Positions 5,131-11,497 of a stretch of DNA of 12,247 nt are shown here, in pieces. The position numbers and the translations under genes are program-made. Source of the DNA: Verrucomicrobia subdivision 3 bacterium UBA7542 (GTDB taxonomy: Bacteria > Verrucomicrobiota > Verrucomicrobiia > Limisphaerales > UBA11358); the NCBI GenBank assembly GCA_002479245.1, contig DLMG01000201.1, forward strand, positions 15,824 through 28,070, read 5' to 3'. The notes under the pieces were generated by a model. That model ran no database searches, had not been told where the DNA came from, and worked only from the letters and a program-made list of their open reading frames with translations. The first letter of the stretch is position 1; each line of letters starts with the position of its first letter.

Positions 5131-6729
5131 ATGCATTCACCGACACTGGATGAATTTTTGAAACTGGCCGCGCAGGGCAACATGATTCCCGTCACGCGCC
5201 GACTGCTGGCCGACATTGAAACACCGCTTTCGGCCTACCGAAAAATCCGCGGCCAGGGCGAATCGTTCCTTTTTGAATCCGTCGAAGGCGGCGAGCATCT
5301 CGGACGCTATTCGTTCGTCGGTTGCAATCCGCGCGCGGTCATCAAGCAAACCGGCAATCGCGTGGAAGTTATTGAAAATGGGAAGGTCATGGAGAAATTC
5401 GAAGTTCGGAGCGCGGCTGTCTCAGCCGCAGCAGGCACGCAATCGCAACAGCCTCACGAACTCCAGAGTCCCACAGCCGGCGGCAGTGCTGCGGCTGGGA
5501 TAGCCGCGCTCCACGTCCGCGATGGCCTCGAAGTCGTCGAGCACGTGATGAAAAAATATCGCGCGGTCCTGCTGCCGGGTTTGCCGCGTTTCACCGGCGG
5601 CGCCATCGGTTTCATCGGCTACGAATTTATTCACGACGTTGAACCGGTCGTGCCGCGCCCGCCCAGGGACGAATTACAAACGCCCACCATGGTTTTTCTC
5701 ATCGCCGACCAGTTGCTGATTTTCGACCGCGTGGCGCAGACCATCACCGTCCTGGTCAACGCCTTTCTCGATGGCGCAGCGGGGCCGGCCGAGGTTTACG
5801 AAGATGCCGTCGGCGAAATTGAGCGGCTGGTTTCGTTGCTCGAACAGCCGAGCGAACATCATCCGGTCAGCCTGCCGGGCGAAGTGCCCCCGGTGCCATT
5901 TGAGTCGAACATCACCCGGGAAAAGTTTTTTGCGAACGTGCTCAAGGCCAAGGAATACATCACCGCCGGCGACATCATCCAGGTCGTTGGTTCACAACGG
6001 TTTTCCACGCCGGTGAAGGCGTCGCCGATTGATGTTTATCGCGCCGTGCGCTCGGTGAATCCGTCGCCCTACATGTTTTTGCTGGAATTGGACGGCTTTT
6101 CGCTCGTGGGCGCTTCACCGGAAATTCACGTGCGTTGCGAGGATGGCCGGGTGGAAATCCGCCCCATCGCCGGCACACGGCAGCGCGGCAAAACACCGGA
6201 GGAAGACGCCGCGCTGGAAAAGGAATTGCTGGCTGATCCGAAGGAACGTGCCGAGCACGTGATGCTCGTGGATCTGGCGCGCAACGACATCGGGCGCGTG
6301 TGCGATTTCGGCAGCGTGCGGGTGAAGGACCTGATGATCATCGAGCGTTACAGCCACGTCATGCACATCGTGTCGGAAGTGGAAGGGAAATTGTCCGCCG
6401 ATAAAACGCTTTACGATTTGATGCGCGCGACGTTTCCGGCGGGCACGGTCAGCGGCGCCCCGAAAATCCGCGCGATGCAGATTATTTCCGAGCTTGAACA
6501 GACCGCGCGCGGCCCCTACGCCGGCTGCGTCGGTTATTTTTCGTTCAATGGCAATCTCGACACCTGCATCACCATCCGCACCGCGTTGCTCAAGGACGGC
6601 AAGGCTTACGTGCAGGCCGGCGGTGGCTGGGTCAGCGATTCGACGCCCGAGGGCGAATTTCAGGAGACCGTCAACAAATCCAAAGCCATGCTCAAAGCCG
6701 TGGCGATGGCGGAAGGTTTTGGGCGTTAA
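5131..6729 (+). CDS. trpE: Anthranilate synthase component I, with an in-frame palindromic insertion
   Basis: Converts chorismate to anthranilate using ammonia from TrpG, the first committed step of tryptophan synthesis; cytoplasmic. The product is 532 residues. The N-terminal domain has SFLFESVEGGEHLGRYSFVG (45-64), the ESVE region of the tryptophan feedback site, and GAIGFIGYEFIHDVEP (157-172). The chorismate-binding domain has PIAGTRQRGKT (345-355), KERAEHVMLVDLARNDIGRV (371-390), FPAGTVSGAPKIRAMQIISE (435-454) and GYFSFNGNLDTCITIRTA (468-485). All the expected core motifs are present. Residues about 92-129 have no counterpart in ordinary TrpE and are encoded by the repeat at 5408-5512; the flanks (FEV ... 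RDGLEVV) join naturally without them. The start is 3 bases after the previous stop and lacks a Shine-Dalgarno. No trpG is in the window. PabB is an alternative but less likely. Confidence 0.95.
   Translation: MHSPTLDEFLKLAAQGNMIPVTRRLLADIETPLSAYRKIRGQGESFLFESVEGGEHLGRYSFVGCNPRAVIKQTGNRVEVIENGKVMEKFEVRSAAVSAAAGTQSQQPHELQSPTAGGSAAAGIAALHVRDGLEVVEHVMKKYRAVLLPGLPRFTGGAIGFIGYEFIHDVEPVVPRPPRDELQTPTMVFLIADQLLIFDRVAQTITVLVNAFLDGAAGPAEVYEDAVGEIERLVSLLEQPSEHHPVSLPGEVPPVPFESNITREKFFANVLKAKEYITAGDIIQVVGSQRFSTPVKASPIDVYRAVRSVNPSPYMFLLELDGFSLVGASPEIHVRCEDGRVEIRPIAGTRQRGKTPEEDAALEKELLADPKERAEHVMLVDLARNDIGRVCDFGSVRVKDLMIIERYSHVMHIVSEVEGKLSADKTLYDLMRATFPAGTVSGAPKIRAMQIISELEQTARGPYAGCVGYFSFNGNLDTCITIRTALLKDGKAYVQAGGGWVSDSTPEGEFQETVNKSKAMLKAVAMAEGFGR
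5408..5512. repeat. REPIN-like palindromic repeat inserted in frame in trpE
   Basis: Two 26-base arms (5408-5433 and 5487-5512) are inverted copies with 24 of 26 identities, and the two differences would be G-U pairs in RNA. Each arm is itself a small hairpin: GCGGCTG TCT CAGCCGC on the left (5413-5429) and GCGGCT GGGAT AGCCGC on the right. The arms flank a 53-base spacer. Two REP-like hairpins in opposite orientation around a spacer is REPIN architecture. It has no stop in the trpE frame and is read through as an Ala/Ser/Gln-rich segment (RSAAVSAAAG ... GGSAAAGIAAL). Confidence 0.85.
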
Positions 6730-9083: not shown

Positions 9084-10358
9084 ATGAACGCATTCGAGTG
9101 GACAGATTGGAATTCCGGCAAACTTCCAGAATTGGAACGTCACAGCGAAGCCAAGCTCAATGTCCTTCGCAATTACGTTACGGATTATATCTGTATTTTG
9201 TGCTCTGACAGCTACGGTCGCGATGCATTCAGAATTACAATGGTTGACGGCTTCGCGGGAGGTGGGGCATATCGTGATGGCAAGTTTGGTTCTCCTTTTG
9301 TATTCCTCGAAGCCGTTGCGGCCGCAGATTCAAAGATAAATGCTAACCGCCACAAGCCGCTTTTAATTGATTGCCATTATTATTTTGTCGAGGAAAAACG
9401 AGAGGCATTTGAATGCCTTCAGGCGCAGTTGCAGCATTCGATTTACAAAAATCAGATTGGGAAAACGATTTTTTTGAAGCACGGCAGCTTTCACCAATGC
9501 CAAACGCAGATTGTCGCCGAAACAAAGGCCCGTTTTATACGGGGCGGTTCACGAGCGATTTTTTTCTTAGACCAATGCGGTTACACAGATGTGCATCCGC
9601 GGATGCTGAATTCGATTTCAACCGAACTTAATAACAAGGCCGAATTTATCATCAACTTCGCCGTCAATTGGTTAATCGATTTTGTGAGCAATACAGATCA
9701 GTTTCGGCAAATGCTCAAAAGCTTAGGCCTTGATTCAGAGTTATCAGTTGAGCAACTCATTCGTGTGAAGGAAAAATCCGGCTCAGACTGGCGATATGTA
9801 ATCGAAGCAATGATTGGTCCGGCGTTTAGAAAAGCTGCCGGAGCACAATTCTTTTCACCTTTCTATATCGCTCCCATTGATAATCACCGTGGTTATTGGC
9901 TTTTGCATTTGGCTCCACACATTCGCGCGCGTTCAGCGATGCTCGATGTGTACTGGCGTAATGCGAACGGACACCGACACTTTGGCCACCTTGGGCTGAA
10001 CATGTTGTCGTACAAACCGGATGCAAAACAAGAAGGTTACTTGGATGGTTTCGCATTTGATGGTTTCACCAAGAACGCGGCAATGGAACTATTGAAAACC
10101 GACTTCGCCCGTGTCATTCGCGACAGTCACACAGAAGGCATTTCATTTCGCAATTTCGCCACGAAATACTGCAATCAGACAATCGCCAATGAATCCCTAA
10201 TCGCAGAAACCATTAAAGAACTCTCACGCGCCGGAGAAATCATCATCCTTGGACCGAAGGGAAGTCCGAAACGCAGTGAGGCCATCGGAGCAAATGATAT
10301 TGTTCTTCCGTGTAATCAACTCTTTTTTGAAACGTTGAGGGCCGGCAGAGAACAATAA
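9084..10358 (+). CDS. tcmP: Three-Cys-motif partner protein, TcmP family
   Basis: A 424-residue protein matching the TcmP pattern. The biochemical role is not known; families of this type are found next to a protein with a three-cysteine (radical-SAM-like) motif, which is the case here. Residues 17-38 are a helix of the HSEAKLNVLRNYV type. MVDGFAGGGAYRDGKFGSPF (53-72) is a D-x-F-x-G-x-G nucleotide- or SAM-binding-like loop as in methyltransferase motif I. IFFLDQCGYTDVHP (159-172) corresponds to the family's DPFG-like element. YWLLHLAPHIRARSAMLDVYW (271-291) matches the conserved Y-x-L....H motif. Residues 345-415 look like a winged helix (FRNFATKYCNQTIANESLI). The start has GGTGGCGGG upstream. 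One 60-base stretch (9361-9420) is only 33 percent GC, far below its neighbours, which suggests transfer. It lies 44 bases upstream of the radical SAM gene. Confidence 0.8.
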   Translation: MNAFEWTDWNSGKLPELERHSEAKLNVLRNYVTDYICILCSDSYGRDAFRITMVDGFAGGGAYRDGKFGSPFVFLEAVAAADSKINANRHKPLLIDCHYYFVEEKREAFECLQAQLQHSIYKNQIGKTIFLKHGSFHQCQTQIVAETKARFIRGGSRAIFFLDQCGYTDVHPRMLNSISTELNNKAEFIINFAVNWLIDFVSNTDQFRQMLKSLGLDSELSVEQLIRVKEKSGSDWRYVIEAMIGPAFRKAAGAQFFSPFYIAPIDNHRGYWLLHLAPHIRARSAMLDVYWRNANGHRHFGHLGLNMLSYKPDAKQEGYLDGFAFDGFTKNAAMELLKTDFARVIRDSHTEGISFRNFATKYCNQTIANESLIAETIKELSRAGEIIILGPKGSPKRSEAIGANDIVLPCNQLFFETLRAGREQ

Positions 10359-10402: not shown

Positions 10403-11497
10403 ATGACTGAGCTAATAACCATCGAAGCAACGCCGAAATTTGTTTCTCCAGAAACAAGTTTCGAACTTGTTGACATGTGGCAGTCCCCGGCGGTGATTGC
10501 CGAAAACAATTTCATTTACAAAAGCCTGTCGAATTGGGCGTTCAACGTCGCGGTCGGGTGCTCGCACGCCTGCCGGTTTTGTTACGTGCCCAGTGCGGCC
10601 ACGATCAAGCAAGGGCCGAAGCTGGCGGAATACGGCGTCAAGGATCCGGACGCCGAGTGGGGCGATTACCTTTTGCTCCGTCCGTGGGATGAACAGAAGT
10701 TCCTTGCTTCACTGCGCGCCGCCGAGAACACGCCCCGCAAGCAACTCAAGCCCGATGGCAATCGCGCGGTGATTTATTGTAGCACGACCGATCCTTACCA
10801 GGTCATCCGCCATCCCGACCCGGCGCGGCAGCGGGAACTGGCCGAGCACGCACGTTTTCTCGTGCATCGTTCACTCGAACTCATCCGCGACCAATCCACC
10901 CTCAACGTCCGCGTCCTCACGCGCAGTCCTCTGGCGCGGGCGGACTTCGATTTGTTCCGCAGTTTCGGCAAACGGCTGGTCTTTGGCATGAGTCTGCCGA
11001 CGCTTCGCAACGATTTGGCCAAGGTTTATGAGCCGAAAGCGCCTGCGCCGTCGCAGCGACTGGCCACGTTGCGCGCCGCAAAGGAAGCCGGCCTGCATGT
11101 CTTTGTGGCCATGGCACCGACGTATCCCGAATGTGAGGAAACCGATTTACGCGCAACGCTGAAAGCCGTGGCTGAACTGGAACCCATCACCATTTTCCAC
11201 GAACCCATCAACATCCGAGCTGAAAACGTGTCGCGCATCGAGGCGCAGGCGGCGGACATGGGTATTCGCTTACGGACAGAAGTTTTCACCACGCGTGAAA
11301 GTTGGCAGAATTATGCGGTGGATGCGTTGCACACCGTTTCCGAAATTGCCAGGGAACTCGGCATTGAGGATCACCTGCATTTGTGGCCGGACAAATCACT
11401 TGGCAGTCAATTGCTGGCCGACCGGATGCCAAATCCAAAGAGATATTTGAGGCGGCTCGAACATTGGTGGCACCGCATCAGCGAGTGGCCGAAGTAG
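10403..11497 (+). CDS. SPL-like radical SAM protein
   Basis: A 364-residue radical SAM enzyme of the spore-photoproduct-lyase-like / Rv2578c-like group; substrate unknown. The iron-sulfur motif GCSHACRFCYVP (52-63) gives the canonical CxxxCxxC with Cys53, Cys57 and Cys60. AVIYCSTTDPYQ (122-133) follows at the second barrel strand, as is typical of this group. Then come TLNVRVLTRSPLARADFDLF (about 165-184), RLVFGMSLPT (190-199), GLHVFVAMAPTYPE (about 230-243) and ITIFHEPINIRAENV (about 258-272). The frame is intact and strongly GC-rich (10801-10860 is 70 percent GC), unlike tcmP. No good Shine-Dalgarno lies before ATG 10403. The 44-base gap to tcmP suggests co-transcription, and the cysteine motif makes it the likely three-Cys partner. 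Confidence 0.88.
   Translation: MTELITIEATPKFVSPETSFELVDMWQSPAVIAENNFIYKSLSNWAFNVAVGCSHACRFCYVPSAATIKQGPKLAEYGVKDPDAEWGDYLLLRPWDEQKFLASLRAAENTPRKQLKPDGNRAVIYCSTTDPYQVIRHPDPARQRELAEHARFLVHRSLELIRDQSTLNVRVLTRSPLARADFDLFRSFGKRLVFGMSLPTLRNDLAKVYEPKAPAPSQRLATLRAAKEAGLHVFVAMAPTYPECEETDLRATLKAVAELEPITIFHEPINIRAENVSRIEAQAADMGIRLRTEVFTTRESWQNYAVDALHTVSEIARELGIEDHLHLWPDKSLGSQLLADRMPNPKRYLRRLEHWWHRISEWPK

Follow-up and report, generated by a model that had tools for sequence, protein, structure and literature searches.

How does an enzyme gene come to carry, and to translate, a palindromic repeat, and is that repeat of use to the cell? The question is raised by trpE in the window, a stretch of 12,247 nucleotides from the draft genome of Verrucomicrobia subdivision 3 bacterium UBA7542 (G000 in our set; 4.4 Mb, 428 contigs, 69.8% complete). 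An earlier note on the window described two 26-base inverted arms, each itself a mini-hairpin, within the open trpE frame, and the coordinates in Table 1 bear this out. Elsewhere in the window, two adjacent open reading frames (9084-10358 and 10403-11497) may encode a partner protein of the TcmP type and a radical SAM protein.

Table 1. The element in trpE (window coordinates) and the kinds of insert found at the same turn of TrpE.
Feature	Coordinates	Strand	Genomes	Basis or remark
trpE, anthranilate synthase component I, 532 aa, carries insert	5131..6729	+	G000	ORF; Pfam Anth_synt_I_N and Chorismate_bind
Left arm (REP), 26 nt, with mini-hairpin 5413-5429	5408..5433	+	G000	inverted-repeat search; repeated in genome
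Inter-arm spacer, 53 nt	5434..5486	+	G000	
Right arm (inverted REP), 26 nt, with mini-hairpin 5491-5507	5487..5512	+	G000	inverted-repeat search; repeated in genome
Complete REPIN-like element, 105 nt, trpE codons 93-128	5408..5512	+	G000	arms, fold, genome copies, shuffles; absent from G218 and other same-genus relatives
Class A			G000, G108	
Class B (GAPVSDPA..GSETGAP)			G001, G221	
Class C (RRTGVAPV..DRRDACPT)			G101	
Class D (GRDALPRVQ and kin)			G226, G094	seen by peptide
Class E (GRAGSPLPAA..RRARSDAP and kin)			G099, G102, G126	
Class F (LTPSLSPSDGERVAKPGEG and kin)			G020, G027, G045, G127, G092, G043, G097	
Compound element, 157 nt			G216	

The two arms are 92% complementary, and the inverted repeat of the trpE loop was matched by none of 100 dinucleotide shuffles. 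The RNA of positions 5400-5520 is predicted to fold at -68.4 kcal/mol (z -6.33 against 200 shuffles), and an Rfam scan of the window gave no match at gathering thresholds. The earlier note counted about 38 extra residues at 92-129. The insert is real, but its extent has to be corrected to about 35 codons, and the net gain over same-genus relatives with an empty site is 33 residues (48 versus 15 in the compared segment). One of these relatives is G218, whose TrpE is 95% identical over residues 129-532; like most of the same-genus relatives read, it has a 15-codon segment at the site (e.g., ..VGKDVKDGL). In other words, close relatives show the clean gap that the earlier note had proposed to look for, and those that lack the palindrome also lack the extra residues.

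The element is also not confined to trpE. A 121-base query gave 64 BLAST rows in G000 (E up to 10), of which many represent one place on both strands, and a pattern for the arms matched 48 times (21 forward and 27 reverse) where the reversed control matched 0 times, so that the other genomic copies expected by the earlier note do exist. Among 30 genomes, the arm pattern is present in 17, G000 included, and the reversed control matches once each in G011 and G025. The distance within the arm pair is 80-83 nt in trpE and at three further G000 loci (L004-L006). Neither a GTAG nor a CGTC tag is found at the REP end: the A arms of the window and the copies that were read begin GGAGCGCGG. Of the 17 G000 loci examined, trpE included, 3 have the element 90 codons or more within a long open frame, and the remaining 14 do not. 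The other two of the three are single A-type arms in long frames, one in a NuoL-like gene (L007:1501-1526) and one in a gene for a DEAD helicase with DUF3516 (L020:1501-1529).

A REPIN consists of two inverted REP hairpins with a spacer, is present in many copies per genome, and is linked to a RAYT, which is a Y1 transposase. Matches to Y1_Tnp (PF01797) were found in 26 of the 30 genomes, with 12 in G000. At one of these 12 (L339), a Y1_Tnp open reading frame (897-1508, E 1.4e-11) lies between A-type arms at 742-770 and 1615-1643; the patterns used detected no arms at the other 11, nor at five more loci in G001. In G008, two direct copies of the arm enclose a Y1_Tnp open reading frame (L340, E 8.2e-9); in G002, two arms enclose an open reading frame that has no Pfam match (L341); and in G001 one A-type arm adjoins an open reading frame (L357). 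Another G001 locus (L330) has a Y1_Tnp match with three B elements: at the match, within it, and beyond it. The stem of the arm covaries in a sample of 38 distinct 25-base arms, in which the outer four stem pairs were fixed by the search pattern: 30 cells show double changes against 11.5 in shuffles (0/500), and all three variable pairs are affected. The REPIN-like identity that the earlier note proposed is therefore well supported, based on (i) the inverted hairpin arms with their spacer; (ii) the dispersed copies; (iii) the flanked RAYT-like gene; and (iv) the covariation of the stem. Such a REPIN is a non-autonomous element and would presumably be moved by the RAYT (Y1/HUH transposase) of the same genome.

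Different elements were found at the same turn in other relatives. The DNA of the trpE loop was sought in 150 genomes, taken from the best-scoring rows and not as a random sample; 138 of them gave a loop, and the 12 that failed the extraction pattern enter no count. Six classes of insert peptide occur at the TrpE turn, and for five of these (A, B, C, E, and F) the DNA is repeated throughout the host genome. Apart from class A, the element of the B loop recurs in 64 rows in G001 and 96 in G221 (E up to 10), and at E up to 0.001 that of the C loop recurs in 99 rows in G101 and 84 in G216, that of the E loop in 49, 53, 46, and 15 rows in G099, G102, G126, and G226, and that of the F loop in 9 to 80 rows across seven genomes. 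The right part of the compound element has 18 further places in G216 and none in G218 beyond trpE. Because relatives carry different mobile palindromes at the same spot, the TrpE loop looks like a repeated landing place. In other words, unrelated mobile palindromes enter this one turn of TrpE repeatedly.

Counting a loop of 84 nt or more as long, and as palindromic when at most 1 of 100 shuffles reaches it, 13 of 35 long loops are palindromic versus 1 of 103 short loops. Twenty-two long loops are without a palindrome beyond shuffles by this measure (e.g., those of G136, G137, G138, and G264). The class D loops do not reach the mark (4/100 in G226 and 13/100 in G094), nor do one E loop (G099, 3/100) and two F loops (G027, 2/100; G092, 22/100). 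Some TrpE loops of 52-62 residues have no palindrome: L201 (G137), L206 (G138), and L207 (G136). It should also be mentioned that a stretch in G099 covering the trpE end and what follows it (L192:1760-1900, contig C21) recurs nearby on the same contig, that a similar recurrence is seen in G126 and G102, and that the TrpE match of G229 (C218:4085-5293) contains one in-frame TGA.

All of these inserts are placed between a strand ending in V or I and a helix starting with DGL, with junctions no more than about 12 nt apart. When a profile of 77 TrpEs is aligned to solved chains, the insert likewise falls between a strand and a helix, here beginning DPL; at this position, 5kck has no residues and 5cwa and 7bvd have few. 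The loop probably lies at the surface of the protein.

Is trpE exceptional among genes? The earlier note regarded in-frame palindromic inserts in enzymes as rare, which is not supported in this lineage. In G001, the B element lies 100 codons or more within a single long open frame at 10 of 15 fetched loci, trpE apart, and an eleventh (L328) is ambiguous, with long frames on both strands. Eight of the 10 frames have Pfam matches (L325 has none, and L331 was left out of the scan): an M16 peptidase, CysS, RecQ, a short-chain dehydrogenase, an Eco57I-like methylase, a DUF455 protein, CstA, and a PMT_2 protein. In the first four, domains span the insert or flank it on both sides. In the zinc-binding domain of RecQ, the B-family palindrome sits between two cysteine pairs (L320:1503-1566, G001:C9). 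PabB, a relative of TrpE, carries a B-family palindrome in its inter-domain linker in G221 (L319:1501-1571, G221:C13). The idea that the family keeps one frame open on purpose also had to be given up: each of 28 B elements has three to six of its six frames free of stops, and the trpE element has three. The longest frames through B elements use at least three readings, and the length of the element modulo 3 is 2 in most of the 28. The GC-rich composition of the elements is sufficient to explain their open frames, and selection by the host explains why the copies in genes are in frame.

Variation is mainly at one loop each in the 120 nearest CysS and the 120 nearest PabB proteins. Assigned by peptide, with DNA read for the G001 CysS and G221 PabB copies, CysS carries class B in 8, class D in 7, and class C in 2 of the 120, and PabB carries class E in 14 of the 120, one of which (P0285) is at another place. 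Looser patterns give 20 of 120 PabBs for class B and 12 of 120 for class F; the looser class E pattern falsely matches CysS (SLLPA), and the counts given first come from stricter patterns. Both proteins were chosen for carrying B and so give no measure of the frequency of such loops.

Returning to trpE, how fast do the inserts change? In the 120 best of at least 8000 scored proteins, the loop differs widely whereas the rest of TrpE has 447-450 residues in 118. By pattern, class A inserts occur in 33 of these 120, and their length and frame are constant across many TrpEs down to 82% identity, a constancy that could reflect selection; shortened A inserts are found in P0015, P0020, and P0072. On a tree of 165 rows built without the loop, the insert class changes at least 69 times, the tree being a quick build with many weak branches in which 14 rows of unclear class were pooled as “?” and from which P0101 and P0105 (G216-like insert in the loop, misread by the class pattern) and two duplicate rows were excluded. 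Shuffled class labels give a mean of 109 changes and a minimum of 100 (200 shuffles), and so inheritance of the class is also visible. One example, drawn from rows picked for long contigs, is a pair of TrpEs with 98.7% identity across the 467 columns compared outside the loop: P0025, on a 50 kb contig, has a class C insert and P0026, on a 117 kb contig, has a class D insert.

What these changes mean depends on the way in which one insert replaces another. There may have been few insertions per family, spread by homologous recombination of a short stretch of trpE, in which case most class changes are exchanges of alleles; we give this about an even chance. All 36 of the A rows in the tree share their frame and junction type, RDGL follows the insert in 35 of 36 and EKF-E/D-V/I precedes it in 28 of 36, and the class differs between near-identical TrpEs, all as exchange would have it. 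The flanking residues -2, +1, and +5 are also class-dependent (z 11.5, 16.6, and 9.1), but this signal is weak because distant columns depend on class too (e.g., +93, z 15.5), as common ancestry would give. Exchange would belong to the best explanation rather than oppose it, but it alters the meaning of the 69 changes: since alleles may be exchanged, these do not count insertions, of which there were at least as many as there are families.

The second alternative moves the cause from the protein to the DNA, supposing that the DNA of the turn fits the targets of several transposases and that protein tolerance is not the cause. Class D and E inserts begin with GGTAGGG, a GTAG tag, empty sites read V-G-R/K-D, in some genomes GGC AGG GAC, one base from GTAG, and the entry points of the different classes fall within about 12 nt. 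On the contrary, the A, B, C, and F elements start without GTAG, and CysS and PabB loops of other sequence have also been entered, and we consider such a hotspot unlikely. It is quite unlikely, to our minds, that the TrpE turn and the CysS and PabB loops form a true cassette site, in which palindromes are continually supplied and swapped and variety of the loop is favored; if it were so, that variety might, for example, act on feedback or on the contacts between subunits, or make homologous exchange of trpE harder from strain to strain. The earlier note spoke of a domesticated palindrome. A further alternative is accordingly an insert that is useful to the cell, through an mRNA hairpin that tunes trpE translation or a loop that tunes feedback or subunit contacts. 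The strength of the hairpin and the constancy and number of the A inserts would suit such a function, but among TrpEs whose identity outside the loop reaches 98.7%, some have an empty allele, some a shortened insert, and some an unrelated peptide. We found no sign of use by the cell, unrelated elements occupying the position in near-identical TrpEs, and regard a cellular function as very unlikely. Lastly, an assembly or binning artefact, to which draft genomes such as G000 are open and which repeats favor, is hardly credible given that many proteins from separate assemblies have an A insert of identical length and frame and that contigs of 50 and 117 kb carry different classes.

Most likely, then, these are selfish insertions that are tolerated in a permissive turn and often replaced. 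A REPIN would have inserted itself into trpE without breaking the frame, at a turn between strand and helix in the N-terminal domain that tolerates extra residues. The element is GC-rich and has several open frames, and TrpE stayed intact. In related bacteria, the same turn has received no fewer than four other families of palindromic repeats (B, C, E, and F), as well as class D, seen by its peptide, and one compound element. The present alleles turn over quickly, presumably by new insertion, by internal deletion, or by recombinational exchange, and the insert itself is probably neutral. Taken together, a REPIN moved by a RAYT, a tolerated turn entered by several families, and fast-changing alleles make up a reading that we consider quite probable.

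Intragenic REPs may in this way turn from scattered curiosities into a comparative system, since different elements, empty sites, deletion derivatives, and near-identical neighbors can all be compared at one turn. Such a system lends itself to asking at which places mobile DNA is accepted in proteins, how fast inserts are gained and lost, and whether the enzyme is affected by them. It is also a caution, as odd loops in proteins of the Verrucomicrobia may be mobile DNA and not domains.

Among the known systems, the REPIN/RAYT system is like ours in its inverted REP hairpins with a spacer, its many copies, its arms beside a Y1 transposase gene, and, in G000, its position mostly outside long frames; the trpE copy differs in lying within an enzyme gene and being translated, and the arm copies read here bear no GTAG or CGTC tag. 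In a literature search, with subscription papers mostly outside reach, we recognised no report of trpE, cysS, or pabB as a recurrent landing site, nor any paper combining “Limisphaerales” and “palindrom”. As described in the passages on them in PMC10969869 and PMC2229807, the Rickettsia palindromic elements (RPEs) are palindromes of about 100-150 bp that are translated in frame in unrelated genes. By that description they resemble the B element with its in-frame copies in the M16 peptidase, CysS, RecQ, short-chain dehydrogenase, PabB, and others. The present elements, in contrast, are found in another phylum, have ties to RAYT-like genes, use several frames, and reuse one position. The translated RU-1/2/3 repeats of enterobacteria are also short palindromic mobile units with open frames within genes (Delihas 2007, PMC2759123), but they are other elements in other hosts, and the passages on them give no repeated use of one position. 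A further precedent is the section on intragenic REPs in Di Nocera et al. (2013, PMC3733652), which describes REPs in frame within genes, most of the GTAG ones in Opitutus terrae, likewise of the Verrucomicrobia, and two Xanthomonas recB genes that hold different REPs at about the same site. That section does not name trpE. Compared with the GTAG/CGTC intragenic REPs as described there, what is seen here is at least five repeat families in one turn of TrpE, within one bacterial order, and frequent change among close relatives.
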